DNA of 64,000 nt from Methylobacterium organophilum (GTDB lineage Bacteria > Pseudomonadota > Alphaproteobacteria > Rhizobiales > Beijerinckiaceae), in contig NZ_BPQV01000005.1 of the NCBI RefSeq assembly GCF_022179465.1, positions 297,732 to 361,731 of the forward strand. The letters run 5' to 3'. This document shows positions 2,733 to 46,046 of this stretch, one piece after another; position 1 is the stretch's first letter; each line of letters opens with the position of its first letter. The position numbers and the translations under genes are program-made. Under the pieces are notes generated by a model that was given only the letters and a program-made list of their open reading frames with translations, was not told the origin of the DNA and searched no databases.

Positions 2733-4019
2733 ATGCACGACATCCGCGCCATCCGCGAGAACCCGCAAGGCTTCGACCACGACCTCGCACGCCGCGGGCT
2801 GGCGCCGCTCTCCGCCGAGCTGCTCGCCCTGGACGATGCCCGCAAGAACGCCGTTTCGGCCGCGCAGGCCAACCAGGAGCGCCGCAACGCCCTGGCCAAG
2901 GAGATCGGCGGCGCCAAGAAGGCGAAGGACGAGGCCCGCGCCGCCGAACTGATGGCCGAGGTCGCCCGGCTGAAGGAGGAAGGGCCGGCCCTCGACGCGG
3001 CGCAGGCGGAGGCCGCCAAGGCCCTGGACGAGCGCCTCGCCGCGATTCCCAACCGGCCGAAGGCCGAGGTGCCGGAAGGCGCCGACGAGCACGGCAATGT
3101 CGAGTATCGCCGCTTCGACTCCGCGCGCAGCCGCCTCGCCGAGGGCCGCCAGCATTTCGAGCTCGGCGAGGCCACCGGCCTGATGGATTTCGAGGCGGCG
3201 GCCAAGCTCTCCGGCGCGCGCTTCGTGGTGCTCAAAGGTCAGCTCGCCCGGCTGGAGCGGGCGCTCGGCCAGTTCATGGTCGACCTGCACACGCAGGAGC
3301 ACGGCTATCTGGAGGTCGCGCCGCCGATCCTCGTGCGCGACGAGGCGATGTTCGGCACGGCGCAGCTGCCGAAGTTCCGTGACGACCAGTTCGCCGCCGG
3401 CGACGGCTTCTGGCTCGTCCCCACCGCCGAGGTGCCGCTGACCAACCTCGTGCGGGAGAGCATCCTCTCGGAGGACCAGCTCCCCCTGCGCTTCACCGCG
3501 CTCACGCCCTGCTTCCGGGCCGAGGCCGGGGCGGCGGGACGCGACACCCGCGGCATGCTGCGCCAGCACCAGTTCAACAAGGTCGAGCTGGTCTCGATCA
3601 CCGCCCCCGAAAAATCGGACGAGGAGCACGAGCGCATGCTCGCCTGCGCCGAGGCGGTGCTGAAGAAGCTCGACCTGACTTACCGGGTGATGACGCTCTG
3701 CACCGGCGACATGGGCTTCGCCAGCCAGAAGACCTACGACATCGAGGTCTGGGTGCCCGGCCAGCAGACCTACCGCGAGATCTCCTCCTGCTCCGTCTGC
3801 GGCGACTTCCAGGCGCGGCGGATGAACGCGCGCTACCGGCCGAAGGACGGCAAGGGCGTTTCCTACGTGCACACCCTCAACGGGTCGGGCGTGGCCGTGG
3901 GCCGCGCCCTGATCGCGGTGATGGAGAACTACCAGAACCCGGACGGCAGCGTCACGATCCCGTCCGTGCTCCAGCCCTATATGGGCGGCCTCAACCGGAT
4001 CGAGGGACCGAACTCCTGA
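2733..4019 (+). CDS. serS: Seryl-tRNA synthetase
   Basis: This protein of 428 residues has the full class II architecture: an N-terminal long coiled-coil arm (residues about 1-110, Lys/Glu/Ala-rich), then the catalytic core. Motif 2 is visible in [20 protein letters not shown] and motif 3 in [18 protein letters not shown] near the C-terminus. It charges tRNA-Ser with serine in the cytoplasm. The start is the ATG at [11 protein letters not shown], the conserved N-terminus; the reading frame stays open far upstream but only as a shadow of rlpA. The stop codon overlaps the surE start (TGATG), implying translational coupling. Confidence 0.97.
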
Positions 4020-4803: not shown

Positions 4804-5943
4804 TCAGGGCACCGGGTAGCGCCGCCCCTTCCAGCGGGCCACGCCCGCGCGCTCGGCGCGGGTGAGGGCGTTCCACTGGATCGCCAGGGCGATCAGGACG
4901 GTGACCGGATGAAGCGGGATCGTGGCCGCCGGCTCGGCCGCGGCCCGGGTGATCGCGGCCCGGGTCGCAAGCGAGATCAGGCCGGCGGCGAGGCTGACGG
5001 CGAGCGAAGCGGTCGAGAGCCCGCCGAGGAGCCCCAAGAGGAACCCTACGAGCACGAGCAGCCAGGGCAGGACGTGGCCGCCGAACAGGAGCAGCGTCCA
5101 GACGGGCAGCGCCCGCGGCGTCGCCATGCCCTCGTTGGCGTTCTTCGAGAAGCCCGCCCAGGCGGCCGCGAAGCCCGGATACATCCGGCAGGTCGCCAGC
5201 GCCGAGGCCGCGACCAGATCCGTCCGATAGCCGGCCGCCCGGAACAGGCGGGGCAGCCGCACGCCATCGTGCAGGCTCCTGCGGATCGCCCCGTGGCCGC
5301 CGCTCGCGGCATAGGCCGCCGCCTCGACCAGGATCAGCTGACCGCAGGCGGCGCCGAGGGAGGGATCGGGCCGCGCCCGCATCAGCGGCATCGGCAGGTA
5401 GCCGAGGAGCAGGAAGCCGATCATCGGCACGGTGAGGCGCTCGCCCAGCGTCTCCATGCGCTGGCGGGGCAGGCCGCTCACCAGGGCGGCCCCGCTGCGG
5501 GCGGCATGGGCCGCGAGGCGCGCGGCGCCCTCCGGCGCGAGGCGCACATCCGCGTCGATGAAGAGCAGGCGCTCGCCCCGCGCCGCCGCGGCCAGGGCCG
5601 CGCAGGCGTTGTTCTTCCCCGTCCAGCCCTCCGGCAGGGAGGGCACGGGCAGGAGGCGCAGGCGGGGATCGCGGGCGGCGAGGGCGGCGACGATCGCCGC
5701 GGTGTCGTCGCTGGAATGGTCGTCGCCGACCAGCACCTCCACCGCCACGCCGCGGCTCGCCAGGGCCGCCTCGACGGTTTCGGCGATGATCGCCGCCTCG
5801 TTTCGGGCCGGGATCAGGATCGAGACGAGGCCGGTCCCGACCGGGCCGGGCTCGGGCGTGCGGTAACCGACGAGGTTCACCGCCGCGATCACGGCCGGGA
5901 GCAGGGCGAGGACGAGGGCCAGGAGCGCGAGGGCGAACATCAT
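4804..5943 (-). CDS. GT2 family membrane glycosyltransferase, carotenoid locus (CruC-like)
   Basis: This 379-residue protein has an N-terminal membrane helix (residues about 2-25) and a GT-A fold beginning VSILIPARNEAAIIAET. The DAD metal-binding motif lies in LLFIDADVRL. Two or three C-terminal helices follow around residues 280-345. Last gene of the minus-strand carotenoid set, it overlaps the acyltransferase stop by 4 bases (ATGA). By context it should transfer a sugar to a carboxylated or hydroxylated carotenoid, making the glycosyl ester that the neighbouring acyltransferase then acylates. Hopanoid or glycolipid glycosylation (HpnB-like) is the main alternative. Confidence 0.8.
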   Translation of the reverse strand: MMFALALLALVLALLPAVIAAVNLVGYRTPEPGPVGTGLVSILIPARNEAAIIAETVEAALASRGVAVEVLVGDDHSSDDTAAIVAALAARDPRLRLLPVPSLPEGWTGKNNACAALAAAARGERLLFIDADVRLAPEGAARLAAHAARSGAALVSGLPRQRMETLGERLTVPMIGFLLLGYLPMPLMRARPDPSLGAACGQLILVEAAAYAASGGHGAIRRSLHDGVRLPRLFRAAGYRTDLVAASALATCRMYPGFAAAWAGFSKNANEGMATPRALPVWTLLLFGGHVLPWLLVLVGFLLGLLGGLSTASLAVSLAAGLISLATRAAITRAAAEPAATIPLHPVTVLIALAIQWNALTRAERAGVARWKGRRYPVP

Positions 5944-6743
5944 CGCGGCCGTTCCCCCTCCGGGCGATGGGCGGGGTCGAAGGACCGTCCGCGGGCGAGG
6001 GCGACGAGCCGGCGCCAGCCGTCATAGACCCCACCGATGCCGCTCCGGCCCGCGAGCACGGGTTCGAACCGGCCGGGATCGCGGGCGATCACGTCCTGGC
6101 TCAGGCGGTCGAGCAGGGCCGTCAGATCTCCCTCCAGCCGGGCCAGGCGGGCGGGGCGCGGGAGGGACAGCAGCACGGAGGCGGGGATCGGCGGGCCGAA
6201 GGCGCAGAAGGCTTCCACCCCGCGCTCCTGCCAGAGGGCGTATTCGAGGGCGACGGGCACGAACAGGGCATCGGGGGCGATCTCGGCGAGATGGGCGATG
6301 CCGGGCTTCAAGCCGAGGGGCCGCTCGCGCACATCCGCGAAGCGGCCCTGCGCGGTGACCCAGAGGGCGCGGTTCCGCCCCGAGAGCACGCTGCGCGCCG
6401 CGGCGAGGAACTGCAGCGCCCCCTTCCGCGACGCGAGGTCGACCGGGAAGGCGCCCATGCGGCGGAACACGCCGTAGCGCTCCAGCATCCGCGCCTCGAA
6501 CGGCGCGAAGCCCTCGCGCTCCGGAAACAGCCGGCCGGCGAGCACGATGAGGGTGGCGGCATCCCACCAGGCGGGATGGTTGCAATAGAGGACGAGCGGC
6601 CCGGCATGGCCGGCGCAGGCCGGCCGTCCCCAGCGGGCGAGGCGCAGGGCGTTCATGTGCCGGCGGAAGAAGCGGTCGAACCAGGGCAGCATGAAGCGCC
6701 AGACGAGGGCCGACCGCTCCGGCGGAGGCGGGGGGGCGCTCAC
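5940..6743 (-). CDS. PlsC-type 1-acyltransferase, carotenoid locus (CruD-like)
   Basis: The protein has 267 residues and a GTG start. The H-x4-D acyltransferase signature appears as NHPAWWD, and a second block near RRMGAFPVDL matches motif II/III of the PlsC family. These enzymes move an acyl chain from acyl-CoA or acyl-ACP to a hydroxyl group at the membrane face. Sitting between a carotenoid desaturase (28-base gap) and a glycosyltransferase (4-base overlap), it most likely acylates the sugar of a carotenoid glycoside rather than a glycerophosphate. A methionine 17 codons downstream is a possible alternative start. Confidence 0.8.
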   Translation of the reverse strand: MSAPPPPPERSALVWRFMLPWFDRFFRRHMNALRLARWGRPACAGHAGPLVLYCNHPAWWDAATLIVLAGRLFPEREGFAPFEARMLERYGVFRRMGAFPVDLASRKGALQFLAAARSVLSGRNRALWVTAQGRFADVRERPLGLKPGIAHLAEIAPDALFVPVALEYALWQERGVEAFCAFGPPIPASVLLSLPRPARLARLEGDLTALLDRLSQDVIARDPGRFEPVLAGRSGIGGVYDGWRRLVALARGRSFDPAHRPEGERPR

Positions 6744-6771
6744 GCGCGCGAGCCCGTCACGCGCCGGCTCC

Positions 6772-8322
6772 TCACGCGCTCTGGCGCAGGGCCGGCTCCG
6801 CCTGCTGCGGACGGCCCTTGCGCAGGTCCTGATCGAGGGCGTCGGCGGCGATCCAGCCGGACATCATCACCATGGGCATGCCGGGCCCGGGATGGGCGGC
6901 GCCCCCGGCGAGGTAGAGGCCGCCGACCTCCCGCGAGCGGTTGCCGGGCTTGAAGGCGCCCATCATCCGCCCGTGCGAGGCCAGCCCGTAGATCGCGCCG
7001 TTGAGCACGTTGTAGCGCTCGTGGATGTCCCGGGGCGTGAGGTGCCGCTCGACGACGATGCGCGCCTCCAGGTCCGGCATGCCGCCGGTGCGCTTCAGCT
7101 TCTCCAGGATCACCCGGCGATAGATCGGGAACATCGCCGACCAGTCGTGATGCGGCCGCAGATAGGGCGTGTGCACGAGGACGTAGAGCGCCTCGCCGCC
7201 CTCCGGCGCCACGCTCGGATCGGTGATCGAGGGCGCGGCCAGATAGGCGGTCGGGTCGGGGGCGGGCTCGCCCTTCCGGTAGATGAAGTCGAACTCCTCC
7301 TCCGGGTCGCGGGAGAAGACGAAATCGTGGTGGGCCAGGTGCTCGTAGCGGCGGTCGAGGCCGAGATAGAGCACCACGCCGGAGCAGGCGGGCTCGAAGC
7401 TCCGCTTCTCGTAGGCCTTGCCGACCGCCCCGCCGACGAGCTCGCGGTAGGTGCGCACGGAATCCATGTTGGAGATCACCGCGTCGTAGGCGACGCTCTC
7501 CCCGCCGAGGCGCAGCCCGCGCACGGCGCCCCCGGCGATGTCGAGCCCGGTCACCGCGGCGGCGGGCCGCAGGGCGACGCCGAGCTCCTGGGCGAGCCGG
7601 GTGAGCCCCTCGGCCACGGCCCGGGTGCCGCCCATCGGGTACCAGACGCCCTCCGCGGTCTGCATATGCGCGATCGCGCAGAGCACCGCCGGCGCGCCGT
7701 AGGGGGAGGAGCCGACATATTGCACGAAATGGTCGAGCATCTGCGCGAGGCGGGCATCCTTCACCTTGCCGCGGATGGTGCTCGCCACGGTGGCATGCAT
7801 GCGCAGGCTCAGAACGTCGCGCAGGGTGCCGGGATTCATGTTGGCGCGCAGGTCGATCGTGTCGAACAGGTCCTGCACCGCCTTCCAGAAGAAGAACCGC
7901 TCCGAGACGCCGTGCAGATGCTCGGAGAGGGCGATGAACCGCTTGTAGCCCTCGCCCACGCCCTGGCCGGGGGCGAAGCGCTCCATGGTGGCGGCCATGG
8001 CCTCCACGTCCTCGATCAGGTCGATCCGCGCGCCGTCCTCGAAGAAGCAGCGCCATTGCGGGTCAAGCCGGCGCAGGTCCATGTAGTCGTGGACGCTGCG
8101 GCCGGCCTCGGCGAAGATCCGCTCCAGCACCCGGGGCACGGTGAGGATGGTCGGCCCCATATCGAAGCGGAAGCCGCCCTCGTGCAGCACCGCGGCCTTG
8201 CCGCCGAGCCAGGGATTCTTGTCGTAGAGGGTGACGCGGTGCCCCCGCGCCGCCGTCACGCAGGCCGCCGCCAGCCCGCCGAGGCCGCTGCCGATCACGG
8301 CGATCGAGGAATCCTGGCTCAT
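6772..8322 (-). CDS. CrtI/CrtN-family carotenoid desaturase or oxidase (second paralogue)
   Basis: This 516-residue FAD enzyme opens with the dinucleotide-binding motif IGSGLGGLAAACVTAARG and the downstream GGKAAVLHEGGFRFDMGPT, typical of phytoene/diapophytoene desaturases. The C-terminal FAD-binding block GGAAHPGPGMPMVMMSG is also present. In methylotrophic bacteria such enzymes desaturate or terminally oxidise C30 carotenoids built from squalene. Which step this paralogue performs cannot be read from sequence. A plausible promoter sits in the 124-base gap upstream, and the acyltransferase and glycosyltransferase follow closely. The family is certain; the substrate is inferred. Confidence 0.85.
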   Translation of the reverse strand: MSQDSSIAVIGSGLGGLAAACVTAARGHRVTLYDKNPWLGGKAAVLHEGGFRFDMGPTILTVPRVLERIFAEAGRSVHDYMDLRRLDPQWRCFFEDGARIDLIEDVEAMAATMERFAPGQGVGEGYKRFIALSEHLHGVSERFFFWKAVQDLFDTIDLRANMNPGTLRDVLSLRMHATVASTIRGKVKDARLAQMLDHFVQYVGSSPYGAPAVLCAIAHMQTAEGVWYPMGGTRAVAEGLTRLAQELGVALRPAAAVTGLDIAGGAVRGLRLGGESVAYDAVISNMDSVRTYRELVGGAVGKAYEKRSFEPACSGVVLYLGLDRRYEHLAHHDFVFSRDPEEEFDFIYRKGEPAPDPTAYLAAPSITDPSVAPEGGEALYVLVHTPYLRPHHDWSAMFPIYRRVILEKLKRTGGMPDLEARIVVERHLTPRDIHERYNVLNGAIYGLASHGRMMGAFKPGNRSREVGGLYLAGGAAHPGPGMPMVMMSGWIAADALDQDLRKGRPQQAEPALRQSA

Positions 8323-8380
8323 GGGCGTCGTGCTCTCCGGATCGGCGTGAGGCCCGAAGCTCGGCCGATCCGCTGGGCCG

Positions 8381-8408
8381 AAGCTACGATCGGGAATCGC
8401 GGGGTCAA
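8381..8408 (-). promoter_or_regulatory. Candidate sigma-70 promoter for the second desaturase gene
   Basis: On the minus strand TTGACC (8403-8408) and TAGCTT (8381-8386) are separated by 16 bases, about 55 bases ahead of the desaturase start. It would let the desaturase-acyltransferase-glycosyltransferase part be transcribed apart from the upstream ABC genes. Confidence 0.35.
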
Positions 8409-8446
8409 CGCGCCAACCGGTCGCGCCATCCCCTTCGACAGGTTTT

Positions 8447-9646
8447 TCATGCGGGCTGCCCCCGTCGCACTAGGGCGAGGGCGGCGGCGAGGCCGGCCAG
8501 GGCCAGCCCCGCCAGCACGGCCCAGGCCGGAAGCGCCGCCGTGGCGCCCTCGCTCAGGGCGCGCTGGAAGGCCTCGATCGACCAGGCATTGGGCGTGAGC
8601 CATCCGGCCTGCTGCAGCCAGGGCGGCATGAGGAAGCGGGGCACCATGCTGCCGCCCACGGCGGAGAGCAGGAGCACGCCGAAGGTCGCGACGAGATGGG
8701 CCTGCTGCCGCGTCGCCGCGAGGGCGCACCCGGCCAGCGCCAGGCCCGCAGCCATGGCGGCGACGAGGAGCGCGGTGACGAGCCAGCCGATCCCGTGGCG
8801 GGACACGTCGACCCCGTGGAGCAGGGCGGCGGCGGCGAAGATCAGCGCCGTCTGCACGACGCCCTGGAGGGTGAGGAAGGCGAACTTGCCCAGGACGATC
8901 GCCGGCAGGCCGCCGGGGGCGGCGGCGAGCCGGTCGGCCAGGCCCGCGCTCCGCTCGTCGACGAGGGAGAGCGCCCCCTGCATCGCCGAGAACAGCAGGA
9001 ACACGGCGGTGATGGCGCCGGCGTAATAGGCGACGCGGTCGTTGCCGCGGCCCGATCCGGTGGAGCGGCGCTCCACCCAATGGGCGAAGGCGAAGGGCTC
9101 CTTCTTGGCCCGCTGCTCGGCGAAGGTCTCCTCCAGGAAGGCGCGCTCGTCCGCGCCGATCTTGCCCGAGCGCTCGACGTCGGCGACGATCCGGGCCAGC
9201 ACCACGTCGGGCAGGGCCTCGTTGAGGACCCGCTGGAGCTGGCCCAGGGCGATCGGCGTGGCCAGCGCCCGCGCGGGATTCTCGACGAGCAGCACCGGCT
9301 GATCGGCCGGCGCGGACGCGCTGCCTGCGGCGAGATCGCCGCGCAGGACCAGGGCGACGTCGACCGTCCCCCGGCGCACCGCCGCCACGACCGCGTCGAC
9401 GTCGCCCGCCTCCAGCCGTTCGAGGCGCAGGGAGGGCTCGGCGGCAAGGGCGCTCAGCAGGCGCCGGGTCGTCGGCGTGTCGGCGAGATCGGCCACGCCG
9501 AGATGGATCCGGATGCGCTCGCCGATGGCGCCGGAGAAGATCGCGGCGAAGACCACGAAGATCACCGTCGGCAGCAGGAAGGCCATCGCCAGGGCCGCCC
9601 TGTCGCGCAGGAGGGACAGCCACATCACCCGGAAGGCGGCGCTCAT
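8447..9646 (-). CDS. ABC-2 type transporter permease, carotenoid locus
   Basis: The protein has 399 residues. One N-terminal membrane helix (residues about 18-40) is followed by an extracytoplasmic domain of about 190 residues and then five C-terminal helices. This is the ABC-2/DrrB/YhfE-type export permease layout. It overlaps the ATPase stop by 4 bases (ATGA). The frame stays open upstream, but the sequence there is the shadow of the ATPase C-terminus. The protein should form the membrane half of an exporter. Its position between two carotenoid desaturase genes suggests a lipid or carotenoid cargo, which is inference. Confidence 0.85.
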
Positions 9647-10620
9647 CGGCCCGTCTCCGCCAGGGACAGGGCGGGGGCGGGCGCCGGGGGCGCGCCGGCC
9701 AGCACCGCGCGGTAGAGCGATTCCAGCCCCGGCCGGCGCAGGCGGATCTCCGCCACCGGCACGCCGAGGGCGCGCAGATGCGCGAGCAGGGCCGCCCCGT
9801 CGAGGCCGTTCTCGGTTCGTCCCCGCCACACCGTGGCACCGGCCGGGGTGAAGCCGGCGGCGGCGAGGGCGGCCCGCGCCGCCGCGGCGGGGGCGTCTTC
9901 GAGGAGCACCTCCTGCTCGGGCGCGTCCCGGCGCAGGGGATCAAGCAGGGCGGGGAGGGGCCCCTCGCGCAGGAGGCGCCCCTCCCCGAGGACGGCGACG
10001 CGGTCGGCGAGCCGTTCGGCCTCGGCGAAATCGTGCGTGCTGACGAGGAGCCCGGCGCCCTCCGCGCGCAGGCCGGCCAGCAGGGCATGGATCGCGGCCC
10101 GCGCCTCGAGATCGACGCCCTGGGTCGGCTCGTCGAGCAGGATCAGGCGGGGGCGGGCGACGAGGCTCGCGGCGATGTTCGCCCGGCGCTGGTAGCCGCC
10201 CGACAGGGTGCCGACGATCCGCCGCGCCACCGGCCCGAGCGCCCCCTGGTCGAGGGCCCGGGCGACGGCCGCCCGGCGCGTCCCGGCGGACAGCCCGGCC
10301 AGCTCGGCGAAGACGTCGAGATTCTCCGCTACGGTGAGCCGCGGATAGAGGGCGATCTCCTGCGGGACCCAGCCGATCAGGCGGCGCACGGCGCCCGCGC
10401 GGAACGGATCGCCTCCGGCCACCCGGACGCTGCCGGCGGCCGGGGCGAGGCGCCCGGCCACGAGGCGCATCAGCGAGGTCTTGCCCGCCCCGTTGGGGCC
10501 GAGCAGCGCCAGGATCTCCCCCGCCCGGAGCGTCAGGTCCACCCGCGCCAGGGCCGGCCGGCCGCGATAGGCCAGGGAGGCGGAGGCGACGACCACGAGG
10601 GGGGATCCGCTCTGGCTCAT
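9643..10620 (-). CDS. ABC transporter ATP-binding protein, carotenoid locus
   Basis: This protein of 325 residues has Walker [10 protein letters not shown] (41-49), signature LSGGYQRR, Walker [13 protein letters not shown] and a switch histidine in STHDFAEAE. About 100 extra C-terminal residues after the core domain resemble the regulatory tail of ABC-2 exporters such as DrrA or NodI. The start MSQSGSPL at 10620 lies 8 bases after the DUF2141 stop. With the downstream permease it forms a complete homodimeric exporter. Confidence 0.9.
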
Positions 10621-10628
10621 CGGCCGGG

Positions 10629-11054
10629 TCAGCGGGGCGGCAGCGCCCGGACGAGCTGCAGATGCAGCGCGGCGCCGGGCTCGTTCAGGCGGAAGCTGGC
10701 GGAGGCGAAGTCCGGCCGTGCCCGGCGCCCGCCGCCGGAGAAGGCGTAGGGCTCGCGGGGGAGGCCGAGGGGCGTGCGGTCGAGGCGGCGATTGCCGTTG
10801 CGATCCTGGAAGGCCGCGACGGCCCAGATCCCGGGGGGCAGGTCGCGGAAGACGAAACGCTGGCTCGCCCCGGCCGCGGGCGCGTCCTGCCCGATCCGGC
10901 AGGCCTCCTCCGACAGGCCGCCCTGGCACAGGGCGACGTAGAGCGTGCCGCCGGGCTCGATGCCGCTCACCGTCACGTCGAGGCCGGCCGCCTGCCCGGG
11001 GACGAGGGCGAGGGCCGCGAGGAACCCGCCCGCGCCGGCGGCGGCGCGAATCAC
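10629..11054 (-). CDS. Secreted DUF2141 protein, carotenoid locus
   Basis: This 141-residue protein has an N-terminal signal peptide (residues 1-24, ending GQAAG). The body matches the DUF2141 pattern: V-x-G-I-x3-G-x-L-Y-V-A-L-C, then FRDLPPGIWAVAAFQDRNGN, then PLGLPREPYAFS. The GTG start overlaps the upstream desaturase stop by 4 bases. The family is of unknown function, adopts a predicted beta-sandwich, and often accompanies carotenoid or isoprenoid genes. Being exported and co-translated with a desaturase and an ABC exporter, it may bind the pigment outside the inner membrane; this is a hypothesis. Confidence 0.8.
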   Translation of the reverse strand: MIRAAAGAGGFLAALALVPGQAAGLDVTVSGIEPGGTLYVALCQGGLSEEACRIGQDAPAAGASQRFVFRDLPPGIWAVAAFQDRNGNRRLDRTPLGLPREPYAFSGGGRRARPDFASASFRLNEPGAALHLQLVRALPPR

Positions 11055-12622
11055 GACGGCTCCCCCTGCGTCGCCAGGGGCTGCGTGGCGGGAAGCTCCG
11101 CCAGCACCTCCGGCGCCCGGCGGCCGGCGAGATCCTCGATCAGCAGCCGGGCGGAGATGCGCGCGCCCTCGTAGATCACCGGCAGGCCCGAGCCGGGATG
11201 GGTGCCGCCGCCGACGAGATAGAGGCCGTGGCCGAAGCGGTTGTGCGGCCGGAACCAGAGCATCTGGCCGAGATCGTGGGCGAGGTTGAAGGTCGCCCCC
11301 TCATGCACCGCGAAGTCGTCGCGCCAGCCGCGGGGATCGACGACGCGCTCGTAGCGGATGCGCTCCTCGATATCCTCGATCCCGAGGAGCCTCAGGCGGT
11401 CCAGGACCAGCCGGCGATAGGCGGGCCCGACCGCCGCCCAGTCGATGCCGGCCTTCAGGTTGGGCACCGGCACCAGCACGTAGAGGGCGGTGTGGCCCGG
11501 GGGCGCCATGCCGCCGTCCGTGAAGCCCGCATGCTGCACGTAGAGCGAGGGCTCCATCGGCAGCACGCCGCCGGTGATCTCCTCGATGTTGCGCCGGTAA
11601 TCCCGGGCCAGCAGGATCGTATGGTGCCCGAGCGCCTCGGGCATGCGTCCCTCGATGCCGAGATAGAGCATGTAGGTCGAGCAGGAGAGGCGGGCCTTGT
11701 CGACCTTGGCGTCGCGCCAGCGCGGCCGGTAGGCCTCCGGCACGATCTGCGGGACGACCTTGGCGAAGTCGCCGTTGATGACGACGGCATCGGCCTTCAG
11801 GGTCTCGCCCGGCACGGCCACGCCGCTCGCCTTGCCGTTCTCGAACAGAACCTGCTCCGCCGGCGTGTTGAGGCGGATGTCGACGCCCATGCGCCGGGCG
11901 AGCCCCGCCATCGCCTCGGAGACCGCGCCGCAGCCGCCGACCGGGTGATAGACCCCGTGCTCGTATTCGAGGAACGAGAGGATCGTGAATAGGCTCGGGC
12001 AGCGGAAGGGCGACATCCCGAGGTATTTGGTCTGGAAGGAGAAGGCGAGGCGCACCCGCGGATCGGCGAAGAAGCGCTTGAGGTCGCCCTCCACGCTGCG
12101 GCCGGGATGCAGGTGGGGCAGGGCGGTGAGCATGGCGGGGCTCGCCATCGACAGGAGGCTGTCGAAGGGCTGCTCCAGCACCGGCTTGAACTTCGAGAGC
12201 TTCTTCCGGTTCTCGGCGAAAAAGGACCGCAGGTTGCGGGCGTCCTGCGGGGCGATCCGGGCGATCTCCGCCTCCAGACGGTCGAGGTCGCCGGTGGCGC
12301 GGATCTCACTGGAACGGCCGCCCTCCCCCTCGAAGACGAGGTGGTATTGCGGGTCGAGCCGCTTGAGCGCCACGTGGTCCTCCAGCCGCTCGCCGCAGGA
12401 GGCGAAGATGTCGGCGAGGATCTGCGGATAGAGGAAGAAGGTCGGACCGATGTCGAAGCGGTAGCCGCCCGGCGCCTCGACGGTCTTGGTGCGGCCGCCG
12501 ACGGCGGCGTCGCGCTCCAGCACGGTGACGTGGAGGCCGGCCCGGGCCAGCAGGAGCGCCGTGGCGAGGCCGCCGGGGCCGGCTCCCACGACGATCACGC
12601 GGCTCCCGGACAGAGTGCGCAT
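11051..12622 (-). CDS. CrtI/CrtN-family carotenoid desaturase (first paralogue)
   Basis: The protein has 523 residues from the ATG at MRTLSGSRVIVVGAG. The FAD-binding motif VVGAGPGGLATALLLARAG is followed by GGRTKTVEAPGGYRFDIGPT and a C-terminal VGGGTHPGSGLPVIYEGA block. It is a clear paralogue of the enzyme at 6772-8322 and likely performs an earlier desaturation on a C30 or C40 backbone. It heads a set of genes joined by 4-base overlaps. The 19 codons upstream of the chosen start (from 12679) lack family resemblance. Confidence 0.87.
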   Translation of the reverse strand: MRTLSGSRVIVVGAGPGGLATALLLARAGLHVTVLERDAAVGGRTKTVEAPGGYRFDIGPTFFLYPQILADIFASCGERLEDHVALKRLDPQYHLVFEGEGGRSSEIRATGDLDRLEAEIARIAPQDARNLRSFFAENRKKLSKFKPVLEQPFDSLLSMASPAMLTALPHLHPGRSVEGDLKRFFADPRVRLAFSFQTKYLGMSPFRCPSLFTILSFLEYEHGVYHPVGGCGAVSEAMAGLARRMGVDIRLNTPAEQVLFENGKASGVAVPGETLKADAVVINGDFAKVVPQIVPEAYRPRWRDAKVDKARLSCSTYMLYLGIEGRMPEALGHHTILLARDYRRNIEEITGGVLPMEPSLYVQHAGFTDGGMAPPGHTALYVLVPVPNLKAGIDWAAVGPAYRRLVLDRLRLLGIEDIEERIRYERVVDPRGWRDDFAVHEGATFNLAHDLGQMLWFRPHNRFGHGLYLVGGGTHPGSGLPVIYEGARISARLLIEDLAGRRAPEVLAELPATQPLATQGEPS

Positions 12623-41645: not shown

Positions 41646-41735
41646 GGAAGGGTGGCCGAGTGGTTTAAGGCAGCGGTCTTGAAAACCGCCGTGGGGGCAA
41701 CTCCACCGTGGGTTCGAATCCCACCCCTTCCGCCA
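41646..41735 (+). tRNA. tRNA-Ser (anticodon UGA)
   Basis: The 90-base gene has acceptor arms GGAAGGG (41646-41652) and CCCTTCC (41725-41731). The anticodon stem GCGGT/ACCGC encloses the loop CTTGAAA, with anticodon TGA at 41680-41682. A long variable arm, typical of tRNA-Ser, precedes the T arm GTGGG-TTCGAAT-CCCAC. The 3' CCA is encoded. Foreign-looking DNA begins shortly downstream. Confidence 0.95.
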
Positions 41736-41796
41736 GCCGGCCTCCGCGGGCCCGGCCGGACGCGTTGTCCGTCAAAGAGGTCTCAAGGCGCCAGCG

Positions 41797-41854
41797 CGAC
41801 AGGCCCTTGCGACGGCGGCCCCACCGCCGAAGGTGGAGCCGCACCGGCCTGTCG
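41797..41854 (+). other. Large stem-loop downstream of tRNA-Ser
   Basis: CGACAGGCC (41797-41805) pairs with GGCCTGTCG (41846-41854). An inner CGGCGG/CCGCCG helix gives a branched or extended hairpin of 58 bases. It could be a processing or termination structure, or a small structured RNA. Confidence 0.4.
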
Positions 41855-41924
41855 GGAGGTCATCGGAGAGGCGACCGAGCGGTTCGATCGAATTCCGCGT
41901 CAACCGCCGGAACTCTTGCCGAGG

Positions 41925-42626
41925 TCACTTAAAGGCATGAAGCAGTATTCTACCGCGACCATCTCTGACTGTCTGAGTGAACTGGTGACTGAACGTGCGA
42001 AAACCAACTTCTCGGCACATATCTTCTAGAGCATAAAGGTTTGGCGCAAAATAATTTGTTGGGTCATTGTTCAGCGACTTCCCGAGAAAATACCGCAGAA
42101 CAGGATTGGGGTTGTTCATTTCATCGACAACCGTTTCGATAACGGCAATTTCCCGTGTCACATGCGACAAGGCCGCAAGCCCACCTAACGGATCACGAAG
42201 GTGGTAGAGCACTCCCAAAAACAGAGTGACGTCGTGGATGCCTACAGTTCCGGGATTGATGGCGGGAAGATCTATATCTTTTGATTCGATCTTTGATCCC
42301 AACTTAGAATGGGCGTAATTAAATCCGTCTTTTGTTCCCCAGCCGGGGCCAGACCAGCAGAAATGATCGGTGGCCAGAACGGATTTAGCACCGCGCTTTT
42401 CCGCTTCGAAGCTGAAATACCCGTCCCATGCCCCGATATCCAGAACCGTCCGGTCGGAGAGAGACATCGTGAAGATCTTTCTCGCCTCGTCCTCGAGTTG
42501 GCCCGGCGGCTTCCTTCCTCGCACCTTTTCCCCATCCGGAAAATTGTAAGAGTGGAACCACCTGATATTCGCCCCGGCGGCATCTTCAGCTTTTTGCTCG
42601 GTTTGCACGGCTCGCCCTCCACACAT
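41925..42626 (-). CDS. Class I SAM-dependent methyltransferase, island gene
   Basis: The protein has 233 residues. Motif I is VLDIGAWDGYFSFEAEKRGA and a downstream block FLGVLYHLRDPLGGLAAL resembles the CmoB/DUF1698 group. Small methyltransferases of this type often decorate sugars in surface polysaccharide clusters. Base composition is clearly AT-richer than the genes up to tatC. The ATG lies in an AT-rich leader shared with the upstream glycosyltransferase gene. The substrate is unknown. Confidence 0.8.
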   Translation of the reverse strand: MCGGRAVQTEQKAEDAAGANIRWFHSYNFPDGEKVRGRKPPGQLEDEARKIFTMSLSDRTVLDIGAWDGYFSFEAEKRGAKSVLATDHFCWSGPGWGTKDGFNYAHSKLGSKIESKDIDLPAINPGTVGIHDVTLFLGVLYHLRDPLGGLAALSHVTREIAVIETVVDEMNNPNPVLRYFLGKSLNNDPTNYFAPNLYALEDMCREVGFRTFSHQFTQTVRDGRGRILLHAFK

Positions 42627-42727
42627 TTAATCTATGAATGATAGATCATCTGCTTTTTAAATTGATTTATTTTGACAAATTATTGAAAGACGAAGTATAC
42701 TCCCACGAAAACGTTCGCGATGGAGAA

Positions 42728-43732
42728 TTAATTCGCAAGCAGATTTCGCCATTGTTCCGCAATCACACTTTCATCGAACAATTCTATCGCCCGCGCACGA
42801 CCGGCATCGCCGATGTTCTTCGCAAGCTCCCGATCCGAGATCAGCCGCATGAGATACGTTCGGGCTTCGCTCGCCGTACTGGCTAGAAATCCACTTTTCT
42901 CGTGCTCAATGATGTGAGGAACTTCATAGACGGAGCGAGCCCAGGAATGGGCCTCCTCAGAAATGGCATCCACATTCATGGCGACGATTGGCACACCCGT
43001 CATCATCGCTTCGATGATTCCGAGCGTATAGCTCGCCGGGGTGGTGTGGGCGGCGAGGTATGCATCGGCGGTGCGCAAGGCGCGATGCTGATCGTCATCC
43101 GATAACACACCACCCGAATTTGGATGATCGTCGTTGCCGATCCCATACAGCACCCAGGGCAGCCCAGATGTCGCTTCCTCAAGAAAATCGGCTCTCACTG
43201 CCGGGCCGCGTTTCCGCGCGTTACTGGAAAACGTGATGATCTTTCCGGATCCTCCCTGCCAAGCGTCGAACTCCGAACGGCGCTTTGCAAATCTGATTTC
43301 CGCATCAGATCCGACGAAGCCAGGGATAAATCTCTCGAACAGAGAATAACGAGCAATCGTAAGCTGCGAGCGGTGGCTCCCGATGAAGCGTTCCATGGCT
43401 TCACTCGATTGGCCGATCGAGCGATAGATAATTTTTTGGCCGGGCCTGGCCCAGGGAAAGATACGCAGGACGGCATTGAGGGCGTGCGTTATTACAACAA
43501 CATCATATTGCTTGAAGGTTTCCTCATTGAAGCCCATGGGTCGCCCGACACTTGAACGCAAGGAGAGGCCAGGAATTGGCCGCCCTCCTGTATTCGATAT
43601 GTGGACCTCATATCCGAGCGACTCGAATATCCGAACCTCGTCAAACGCAAGAACTTCATGCACGGATATATAAAGCAATTTCAATTTCGATTCCCCATTA
43701 TTATTTACTGTGTCGGCTGATTTAATAGACAC
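42728..43732 (-). CDS. GT4-like glycosyltransferase, island gene
   Basis: This 334-residue protein looks like a GT-B fold enzyme. The Rossmann-like N-terminal part (KLLYISVHEVLAFDEVRIFE) is followed by a C-terminal domain with TLGIIEAMMTGVPIVAMNVD, the E-x7-E-like donor-binding region of GT4 enzymes. It ends in helices up to QWRNLLAN. Its start lies inside the 3' end of the beta-helix gene (28-base overlap). The AT-richer composition marks it as part of the acquired segment; it is probably for surface glycan synthesis. Confidence 0.78.
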   Translation of the reverse strand: MSIKSADTVNNNGESKLKLLYISVHEVLAFDEVRIFESLGYEVHISNTGGRPIPGLSLRSSVGRPMGFNEETFKQYDVVVITHALNAVLRIFPWARPGQKIIYRSIGQSSEAMERFIGSHRSQLTIARYSLFERFIPGFVGSDAEIRFAKRRSEFDAWQGGSGKIITFSSNARKRGPAVRADFLEEATSGLPWVLYGIGNDDHPNSGGVLSDDDQHRALRTADAYLAAHTTPASYTLGIIEAMMTGVPIVAMNVDAISEEAHSWARSVYEVPHIIEHEKSGFLASTASEARTYLMRLISDRELAKNIGDAGRARAIELFDESVIAEQWRNLLAN

Positions 43733-44940
43733 TTCGTGAAATCGATGTGTGATATTCTTGCATTCTTATTCGAGACGATCTTGTCTTCTCGAACAAACCC
43801 TCGCGATTTTTCAGAAACGTTGACATCTCCAGCAGCAAGCGACCCGCAGGCTGCCTTTAATTGACCGCCAGAATTTTGAACGGTGTTGTTTTCAATCGCA
43901 GCCTCACCATTGGCATCGCTGACACTGATGCCAAGCTCGGCATTCACAATGGTGTTGTTTCTCACCACTCCGCCCTTGGCAGAACTCACATACCAGGGAG
44001 TCCCTCCATAGATGAGACCAAACCCGCATGATCTCTGAGCACTACAGTCGATCTTGTTTCCTTCGAAAATTGATCCGGAAAAATCTCCGCTCGTATTCGG
44101 CCACCCCGCTAACATCATAGCAGCGTAAGACCCTCCGGCTGGCTTGCCGGTGTGTTTGAGTACGTTGCCTCTAATGGAACAATTCGAGCAACCGCCGACG
44201 ATCAGCTGGACATCCGTGTTATCGACGAAAACGTTATTCTCGATCACGGCATTTTTGGAATCCATGACGGTCAGGCCATCCCCCCAGAGGCGGGCGCGGC
44301 TGTGATCGCCGTTGAATCCAACGAAATTCCTTTTGAAGACGAAACCGTCGTTCCCGGCGAGAACCGAGATCGCGCCATTGCAGGGGGCGAGCCTGACCAC
44401 CGAGTTCGTCATCGTGAAATGATCTGCGGCAACGCCGACCAGGCCGCCCGTGCGCGCGGCTTCGCCCTGCTTCCCGCAGAAGAGGGCACGCTGGGGATCG
44501 TTCTTGCTGCCCTCGATCACGATATGATCGAGCTTGATCCCTGCCGCCGCGATTGTAATCGGCCGCGTTTCGAGTCCACGCACACCATTCTGCCGCGTTG
44601 CGGGGGTCGGGCGCGAAAGGAGGGTGAGGCAGCCGGCATCCCCATCCGGCGCGCAGGGCGCCGACGACGCGCCTTTACCGCTGGTTCCGATGTCGACCGG
44701 TTTGCGAAACACGATGGGCTGCTGAAGCACCAATGTTCCGGCACCAAGGGACAAGTGCGCATTGGCTGGCAGCGCATTCAGGCAGTTTTGAAGCTGACTG
44801 CTTGCATCGACTTTCGCATTCAACAAGCCGTCCAAAGCCTGACATTCTGCAATTTTTGCAGGCTGCGCAGAGACGGGGCCAGACAGGCATCCGGCAAGCA
44901 GCCAGGATGCGAAGAGCCATACCTTGTGATGTGAATTCAT
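43705..44940 (-). CDS. Right-handed beta-helix lipoprotein, island gene
   Basis: The protein has 411 residues from the ATG at MNSHHKVWLF. The signal has a lipobox-like LAGC and also a cleavable VSAQ site. The body has repeated NNxF/NNT turns (AVIENNVFVDN, VVRNNTIVNAELGISV, AAIENNTVQNSGG) of a parallel beta-helix, as in pectate-lyase-like or polysaccharide epimerase/lyase proteins. Several cysteine pairs (CSNCS, CSAQRSC) suggest disulfides. It may bind or trim an exported polysaccharide. No catalytic set can be assigned. Confidence 0.78.
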   Translation of the reverse strand: MNSHHKVWLFASWLLAGCLSGPVSAQPAKIAECQALDGLLNAKVDASSQLQNCLNALPANAHLSLGAGTLVLQQPIVFRKPVDIGTSGKGASSAPCAPDGDAGCLTLLSRPTPATRQNGVRGLETRPITIAAAGIKLDHIVIEGSKNDPQRALFCGKQGEAARTGGLVGVAADHFTMTNSVVRLAPCNGAISVLAGNDGFVFKRNFVGFNGDHSRARLWGDGLTVMDSKNAVIENNVFVDNTDVQLIVGGCSNCSIRGNVLKHTGKPAGGSYAAMMLAGWPNTSGDFSGSIFEGNKIDCSAQRSCGFGLIYGGTPWYVSSAKGGVVRNNTIVNAELGISVSDANGEAAIENNTVQNSGGQLKAACGSLAAGDVNVSEKSRGFVREDKIVSNKNARISHIDFTKCLLNQPTQ

Positions 44941-44987
44941 CAGGAGCGACCTGTCTCGCAATACATGGCGCATGCGCATCGCGACCC

Positions 44988-46046
44988 TCATTCAGTCATG
45001 TCGGAAATCTTCACGATCTTTGATGCAATCCCCTTCCGGTCCAGCCACATGGCATGGCGGTAGAGCAGCCCGATCTTGAGCTGGGCATCCTTGGGGGGAA
45101 GCGGGTCGAGGGGGATCTCGAAGGGGATCGCCTGGCCGGGGAGGATGCTGTCGCCGTCCACCGGGATCCGGCCCGTGCCGGCCTTCACGCCGCCTTCGTA
45201 GATCTCGTAGCCGATCTCGGCATAGACGGTCTCGTTGATCCGGCAGGGGATGGCCTCCGCCGACCGGTTCGTGAACACGCCCCGCGCGGCCGGGGCCGTG
45301 CCGCCGCCCTCGGGGGCGCTCCCCCGCGCGGCGATCTCGATGTCGCCCGCCATCGGCCCCTGGGCGCCGATCAGGGCGACGGCCTCCTCGATCTCGTCCT
45401 TCATGATCAGGGCGCCCGGCCGGTGGCGCGCCGCGAGGGCGTCCAGGGCCTCCACGATCGCCCGGCGCTCCGCCGCCTCCCGGTACGCCGCCTCGGCCGG
45501 CAGGGCGAACCAGAGGCTGCCGATGACCTGCAGCCGGCGCCCCAGGGAGCGGGCGAGCGCCCGGGCGCCCCGCCGCACATCCGCGAACTTCTCGACGTAG
45601 TCGTGCCCGGAGACGATGCCCGCGGGCGCCAGCCGGCCGCTCCAGAAGGCGAGGTTCTGGGCGAGGATCGGATCGGTATGGACCGCGTCCTCGAAATACA
45701 GGTCGACGGGCTGCGCCCAGTCCTGGAAATCCTGCGGGCTGAAGCCCCGATGCGCCTGGATGTTGTCGCAATCGGCGACGTTCCGGAGGAACTGGTCCCG
45801 GGTGAAGGTCTGGCGGTGGCTGGAGGCGAGCTTCTGGAAATTGCCGCCCCCGGCCAGCTCCCAGGGGTCCAGGCAATGGACCGTGACCCCCTCGGCCGCG
45901 TTCTTGGCCCAGATCCAGCTCGACAGCCCCAGCAGGGAGCCGACCTCCACGATCTGGCCCCCCTTCGGCACCAGCCGCGCCAGAAGCTCGATGGCCTGCA
46001 TCTCCTCGTCGCGCAGCTGGCCCGGGATGGCTCGGTTGACCGCCAT
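44988..46046 (-). CDS. SAM-dependent methyltransferase with C-terminal beta-sandwich-like domain
   Basis: The protein has 352 residues from the ATG at MAVNRAIPGQ. Residues about 20-190 form a class I methyltransferase fold (IVEVGSLLGLSSWIWAKNAA; the catalytic region YFEDAVHTDP; GIVSGHDY). The last 110 residues look beta-rich (FTNRSAEAIPCRINETVYAEIGY, DSILPGQAIPFEIPLDPLPP) and recall the carbohydrate-binding domain of Wzt-like proteins. The gene is GC-rich like the host, unlike the three following genes. It may methylate a glycan end, as polysaccharide length-control methyltransferases do. Confidence 0.72.
   Translation of the reverse strand: MAVNRAIPGQLRDEEMQAIELLARLVPKGGQIVEVGSLLGLSSWIWAKNAAEGVTVHCLDPWELAGGGNFQKLASSHRQTFTRDQFLRNVADCDNIQAHRGFSPQDFQDWAQPVDLYFEDAVHTDPILAQNLAFWSGRLAPAGIVSGHDYVEKFADVRRGARALARSLGRRLQVIGSLWFALPAEAAYREAAERRAIVEALDALAARHRPGALIMKDEIEEAVALIGAQGPMAGDIEIAARGSAPEGGGTAPAARGVFTNRSAEAIPCRINETVYAEIGYEIYEGGVKAGTGRIPVDGDSILPGQAIPFEIPLDPLPPKDAQLKIGLLYRHAMWLDRKGIASKIVKISDMTE

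Follow-up and report, generated by a model that had tools for sequence, protein, structure and literature searches.

An ABC-2 transporter gene pair linked to C30 and C40 carotenoid genes in Methylobacterium and other Alphaproteobacteria

Dedicated transport genes within a pigment cluster have been described for the aryl polyenes, outer membrane pigments whose tailoring enzymes are a lysophospholipid acyltransferase and a glycosyltransferase; their clusters encode ApeM of the RND family, LolA-like ApeL and LolB-like ApeN, and an RND-LolA-LolB set has been proposed (PMC8253772; this and the other papers below are cited from their accessible portions). In Methylobacterium extorquens AM1, an acylated glucosyl 4,4'-diapolycopenedioate is produced; colour requires META1p3665 and META1p3670, in mutants deleted for META1p3663 and 3664 the 4,4'-diapolycopenedioate was left unglycosylated and unacylated, and the aldehyde-to-acid step is still without an assigned enzyme (PMC10448405). 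The cassette of glycosyltransferase (GT), acyltransferase and CrtP is present in several Methylobacterium strains, and in the accessible text of the same paper "abc transporter" does not occur and DUF2141 is likewise unnamed. Here we analyze a 64,000-nucleotide stretch of Methylobacterium organophilum (contig NZ_BPQV01000005.1, positions 297,732 to 361,731; hereafter the window) in which genes for CrtN, CrtP, a PlsC-like acyltransferase and a GT2 glycosyltransferase, together the gene set of the Methylobacterium C30 locus, share a row of seven with an ABC-2 ATPase and permease and a DUF2141 protein. The enzyme set and the tailoring cassette are the same as in AM1, and by family and gene order, not by comparison with AM1 sequences, CrtN would correspond to META1p3670, CrtP to META1p3665, the PlsC-like protein to META1p3664 and the GT2 protein to META1p3663. 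Because the four enzymes match the AM1 pathway in these respects, the biosynthetic part is already known: the glycosyl and acyl tailoring of a C30 carotenoid that the original prediction read from the locus stands, having been proved by deletion in AM1, and for the same reason its scheme of making, glycosylating and acylating the pigment describes a published rather than an untouched pathway (PMC10448405). What is new here is that the ABC pair is tied by gene linkage to both C30 and C40 carotenoid pathways.

The link extends well beyond the genus. Searches of the family, order, class and phylum, and of the family of G515 (G and L numbers denote genomes and loci, respectively), with permease profiles built from genus sequences only (A1) or with new members added (A4, A5), yielded 24 strong permease relatives outside the genus (E from 1e-39 down), and all 24 loci were scanned with C30 and C40 enzyme queries. 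Sixteen are linked to C40 genes (L150, L152, L154-L161, L177-L181 and L183), often in the order crtE-ATPase-permease-crtW or crtZ, with crtB, crtY or crtI nearby; at L181, on a short contig, crtZ alone was seen, and at L177 only crtE-like and crtZ genes. Four are linked to C30 genes in new gene orders (L148, L149, L151 and L153), such as GT-PlsC-CrtP-CrtN facing DUF2141-ATPase-permease in L148; L153 comes from a different family and carries alongside an open reading frame (ORF) fusing HpnC and HpnD. Three further relatives (L145-L147) adjoin a DUF2141 gene and lie apart from the C30 genes of their genomes, and one lies on a 4.9-kb contig on which nothing else matched (L182). As a control, none of six weaker permease relatives (L162, L184-L188; E 6e-22 to 7e-29) was found near carotenoid genes. 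Counted by eye, the ABC genes and carotenoid genes stay linked through at least eight gene arrangements, a count made without a formal null model and from 24 loci in which sister species are not independent; in the small order of G656, two of four genomes were without the ABC pair. Among example C40 proteins, the CrtI-family protein and CrtY score above NCBIfam cut-offs, CrtW and CrtB have the expected family as the best match yet fall under the equivalog cut-off, the crtE-like protein scores best as farnesyl diphosphate synthase, under the cut-off, and CrtZ was matched only as FA_hydroxylase in Pfam. In L154, one of the C40 loci, crtW is followed by a gene resembling phospholipid/isoprenylcysteine methyltransferases (8885-9406).

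Trees of the permease (41 rows, including 13 of the 44 genus sequences) and of the ATPase (40 rows, including 11 of 42) both separate the carotenoid-linked rows, together with the DUF2141-linked rows and L182, from the control rows at 100/100; two control permeases shorter than 230 aa (L162 and L186) were dropped from the permease tree. The C30 rows of the permease tree cluster with the DUF2141-linked ones in a single group (90/95). L150 and L152, which are C40-linked and come from the window's own family, cluster with C40 rows from another family. Monophyly of the window's family was rejected in this tree (p-AU 0.0039), for a grouping that was named after the tree had been seen, and the ATPase tree has no single C30 group; long branches are also present. 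The type of permease may thus follow the pathway rather than taxonomy, which we regard as a lead only.

Within the genus, the permease is found in 58 of 60 genomes, each with one strong match, which is partial in G011 and G051, and is linked to CrtN in 55 of these 58: in the window, in 42 other loci, in L064, where CrtN is in two pieces, and in 11 genomes where both genes share a strand and the permease lies about 1.4-1.5 kb further downstream than CrtN. In the other three, the permease and CrtN are on different contigs (G041 and G011) or the ABC pair lies by CrtP with CrtN far off (G036). CrtN, DUF2141, ATPase and permease occur together in 42 of the 59 other genus loci fetched, so this gene block is no chance arrangement. 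All 60 genomes have a CrtP relative; besides the one in the window, 58 show 80 to 90% identity, and a partial match shows 83%. In nine of the 11 genomes with a split locus, CrtN and CrtP are on different contigs, which may reflect assembly breaks; separation on one contig was seen in G024 and G054 (by about 100 kb) and also in G036. The presence of DUF2141 beside CrtN and the ABC pair in split genomes was looked at in G024 (L176).

It is very likely that the ABC pair works on carotenoids in some way. Gene neighborhoods and predicted structure lead us to favor, with some confidence, a carotenoid-dedicated lipid exporter that is optional for the pathway and whose substrate, direction and destination we infer. 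According to this reading, CrtN and CrtP would turn squalene into 4,4'-diapolycopene-dioate by desaturation and oxidation, the GT2 enzyme would glucosylate this product and the PlsC-like enzyme would then acylate the sugar, all steps carried over from AM1. The ABC-2 pair would draw a carotenoid with polar ends out of the inner membrane's cytoplasmic leaflet and, with ATP, bring it across to the periplasmic face by flipping or extrusion, thus feeding the outer leaflet or the outer membrane, and the secreted DUF2141 protein could, as a weaker inference, be a periplasmic partner in C30 producers that aids the export step or acts on the end groups of the pigment. It is a more tentative proposal, for which we would not yet claim the better part of the probability, that there is a whole carotenoid-dedicated ABC exporter family in Alphaproteobacteria that serves both C30 acyl-glucosyl diacids and C40 carotenoids made with ketolase or hydroxylase genes and moves the finished pigment towards the outer membrane, with DUF2141 as a partner in C30 producers. 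If true, this would be the ABC counterpart of the RND-Lol route of the aryl polyenes; the pump encoded in the window is an ABC-2 pair, and none of the seven proteins of the locus matches the RND, LolA or LolB families in Pfam at E 0.001.

Several observations weigh against this reading. A CrtN match above 600 bits is present in 24 of 199 family genomes, nine of the genus and 15 others, and in these 15 the permease was found in six (G093, G132, G142, G204, G212 and G224) and not in nine (G078, G092, G117, G127, G129, G147, G157, G158 and G179). Three genus genomes, G016, G033 and G185, the last from a later draw, also have no permease match and keep near full-length matches to CrtN, CrtP, PlsC and GT; a 123-bp ATPase remnant lies in the gap in G016, and the single stop counted inside the CrtN match of G033 is located at its very end. 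A further genus genome, G229, has neither a permease match nor a CrtN match above 600 bits. These absences are not absolute because a limited number of first-pass candidates was scored per genome (up to nine for the permease and seven for CrtN in the family, six or four in the wider searches) and some of the genomes are incomplete (74% for G179, 84% for G158). The locus comparison left out 23 family genomes with only weaker permease matches. Nevertheless, given the nine family genomes and three genus genomes without a permease match, the ABC pair is optional for the C30 pathway. The conservation of the link expected by the original prediction thus holds across the genus and reaches C40 clusters, and the absence from most homologous loci that was named there as the opposite outcome is what we find for part of them, namely nine of the 15 other C30 genomes of the family.

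The second adverse point concerns the substrate. At 40 bits, none of the 16 C40-linked loci gave a match to the GT2 or PlsC queries, although a GT4-type glycosyltransferase gene lies nearby in L150, so the rule is not absolute. The glycosyl-acyl carotenoid, which had been proposed as the specific cargo, therefore probably does not serve as the defining substrate, and since the ABC pair occurs in C40 clusters lacking a matched GT2 or PlsC relative, the acyl-glucose group is probably not the common substrate feature. Because the exporter family also appears to serve C40 clusters, that feature is more likely to be the carotenoid rod with polar ends.

The predicted properties of the two proteins fit an ABC-2 exporter, with the motifs of an ABC ATPase and a permease of the ABC2_membrane family that has six predicted transmembrane (TM) helices, an external domain of about 170 residues between TM1 and TM2, and an ABCA/ABCG-type fold in its AlphaFold2 (AF2) model (predicted local distance difference test, pLDDT, 84.7). 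The best matching folds are those of ABCH-9C and NosY, followed by ABCA and ABCG chains, which places the permease close to the ceramide-bound insect exporter ABCH-9C and to lipid exporters of the ABCA (human ABCA1, ABCA4 and ABCA7) and ABCG families; unlike in these proteins, the ATPase and permease of the window are separate chains, the identity does not exceed 18%, and no PDB sequence matched at E 0.01. The same fold is shared by multidrug exporters such as ABCG2 and Pdr5, and the top NCBIfam names for the pair are those of the DrrA/DrrB drug exporters, although membership in the DrrAB daunorubicin exporters is rejected by scores far under the cut-offs (188.4 against 312.45 bits for TIGR01188 and 38.6 against 223.05 bits for TIGR01247). 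These similarities, along with the dispensability of the pair for pigment loci, would fit an exporter for something else that carotenoid producers need to move, such as a fatty acid, another isoprenoid or a toxic compound, co-regulated with the pigment in light or oxidative stress. We consider this unlikely, albeit worth keeping in mind, because the link to two carotenoid pathways holds through many gene orders and is missing from the six weaker relatives.

The DUF2141 protein has a hydrophobic, signal-peptide-like N-terminus (residues 1-19) and two invariant cysteines (43 and 52), and is predicted to be a secreted beta-sandwich (AF2 model, pLDDT 84.6). The fold comparison returned an unspecific beta-sandwich in which no lipid-carrier fold stood out among the matches listed and which lends a carrier role no support, and no catalytic Pfam family was matched. 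The presence and position of DUF2141 often change along with those of the ABC pair: in a profile scan of the loci, neither was found at the C30 locus of G016, G033 and G185, and in G204, G212 and G224 DUF2141 accompanies the ABC pair apart from the C30 genes, with none found at the C30 locus itself. In the stretch fetched from G093, a DUF2141 gene was not found. Conversely, DUF2141 lies between CrtN and CrtP in eight of nine C30 loci without the ABC pair (L164-L171, but not in G158), and because it stays in these eight loci, it may function independently of the exporter. A DUF2141 gene has also been noted beside crtG in Sphingomonadales, with no role assigned (PMC5989583, PMC9241875). Both of these settings, and the aldehyde-to-acid step that lacks an enzyme in AM1 (PMC10448405), could be accommodated if the ABC pair and DUF2141 took part in biosynthesis, placing an intermediate or a sugar or acyl donor for CrtP, GT or PlsC. 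This appears improbable given that the pathway genes persist where the pair and DUF2141 are both missing (G016, G033 and G185) and that DUF2141 has an unspecific fold and no catalytic match. For DUF2141, the setting next to an ABC pair is in itself a lead on function.

All seven genes of the locus are ORFs on the minus strand, from 12622 to 4804, and three pairs overlap by four bases: CrtN/DUF2141 (11051-11054, GTGA), ATPase/permease (9643-9646, ATGA) and acyltransferase/GT (5940-5943, ATGA). In these respects the original prediction agrees with the coordinates, and each family it named is backed by Pfam and NCBIfam, with both desaturases passing the crtI_fam cut-off of NCBIfam (Table 1).

Table 1. 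Genes of the carotenoid locus and the gap between its two parts, in window coordinates
Feature	Coordinates	Strand	Length	Evidence
CrtN-type C30 carotenoid desaturase	11051..12622	-	523 aa	TIGR02734 485 bits, cut-off 238; orthologues in genus
DUF2141 protein	10629..11054	-	141 aa	PF09912 63.3 bits, gathering cut-off 24.4; AF2 model
ABC transporter ATPase	9643..10620	-	325 aa	PF00005 109 bits; Walker A, signature, Walker B LILLDE, STH motif
ABC-2 permease	8447..9646	-	399 aa	PF12698 94 bits; hydropathy; AF2 model
Permease-CrtP gap	8323..8446	-	124 bp	module boundary
CrtP-type carotenoid oxidase	6772..8322	-	516 aa	TIGR02734 405 bits
PlsC-like acyltransferase	5940..6743	-	267 aa	PF01553 26.2 bits, cut-off 23; motif NHPAWWD
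GT2 glycosyltransferase	4804..5943	-	379 aa	PF00535 72 bits

The overlaps differ in how constant they are across the genus. That between ATPase and permease is exactly four bases in 41 of 42 loci, compared with 16 of 43 for CrtN/DUF2141 and 19 of 58 for PlsC/GT, and the gap between permease and CrtP ranges from 102 to 2953 bp in 43 loci, with no overlap in any of them. Because the latter spacing is never below 102 bp while the ATPase/permease overlap is nearly constant, we read the locus as made up of a CrtN-DUF2141-ATPase-permease module and a CrtP-PlsC-GT module, the ABC pair belonging to the one with CrtN. The gap can hold a further gene that is absent from the window, related to class I glutamine amidotransferases (GATase) and peptidase C26 (L062:9057-9899, the one such gene assigned with Pfam); a GATase-like gene is present there in 20 of 26 genus loci with a gap of at least 600 bp and, by eye, in L046. 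Judging by these relatives, the four locus tags (3666-3669) that the AM1 numbering leaves between CrtP and CrtN would be the ABC pair, DUF2141 and the GATase-like gene. As this gene is present in at least 20 genus loci, bystanders do occur in the locus, and the distance between CrtN and the ABC pair in G036 might likewise suggest that the pair and DUF2141 are neighbors without a role in pigmentation, kept by shared transcription, but this is highly improbable because 20 of the 24 strong relatives outside the genus adjoin carotenoid genes in rearranged orders and selection on the ABC pair and DUF2141 is purifying (median dN/dS in the genus of 0.26 for the permease, 0.39 for the ATPase and 0.40 for DUF2141, against 0.21-0.37 for the four enzymes).

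Because a specific pump is now tied to two pathways, with natural gene losses as controls, the placement of carotenoids in one bacterial membrane or leaflet rather than another becomes directly testable: the pump consists of two genes, is available in a tractable genus and occurs in several gene orders. Carotenoids are reportedly located in the outer membrane of M. extorquens. The hopanoid transporter HpnN carries a lipid made from squalene to the outer membrane, but belongs to the RND family, in contrast to the ABC pair described here. A transporter gene, cg0722, is also part of the crt operon of Corynebacterium. Hopanoids of Methylobacterium are preferentially found in the outer membrane (PMC5358736), and a yeast ABC transporter has been used in carotenoid engineering (PMC12557945). 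With regard to bacterial carotenoid export, the accessible literature yielded no described exporter beyond passing remarks on gene neighborhoods, namely ABC and MFS genes beside crtZ and crtY in Fulvimarina pelagi and a putative carotenoid transporter gene beside carotenoid genes in S. astaxanthinifaciens (PMC4962014). By description, not by comparison of families, the former resembles L152, where the ABC pair, CrtY, CrtW and an MFS gene occur together. The available portions of PMC10731981, PMC13036509, PMC11365102 and PMC13274349 contain nothing on carotenoid export or on ABC genes in carotenoid clusters.

Several additional genes were observed in or near C30 loci. In two genera, an aldehyde dehydrogenase gene directly adjoins the C30 genes (L151:9186-10580 and L148:4-1359; 51% identical to each other) and is a candidate for the aldehyde-to-acid step in those two loci; it is not the missing enzyme of Methylobacterium, because a relative at E 1e-60 is present in only two of 60 genus genomes. 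Three C30 loci contain an ORF of 362-365 aa between CrtN and CrtP (L173:10669-11766, L172:7719-8816 and L164:7444-8532); the one checked, in L173, matches S-adenosylmethionine-dependent methyltransferases, so that carboxyl methylation of the pigment is a candidate function. The fused gene beside the C30 locus in L153 (17057-18640) is a single open frame that passes the NCBIfam cut-offs for HpnC as well as HpnD, a fused gene for squalene synthesis. Finally, elsewhere in the window (41646-45000), a stretch of low GC content (0.51 at 42-44 kb) comes after a tRNA-Ser gene and contains frames that by eye are methyltransferase-like, glycosyltransferase-like and right-handed-helix-like, possibly a surface-polysaccharide island.

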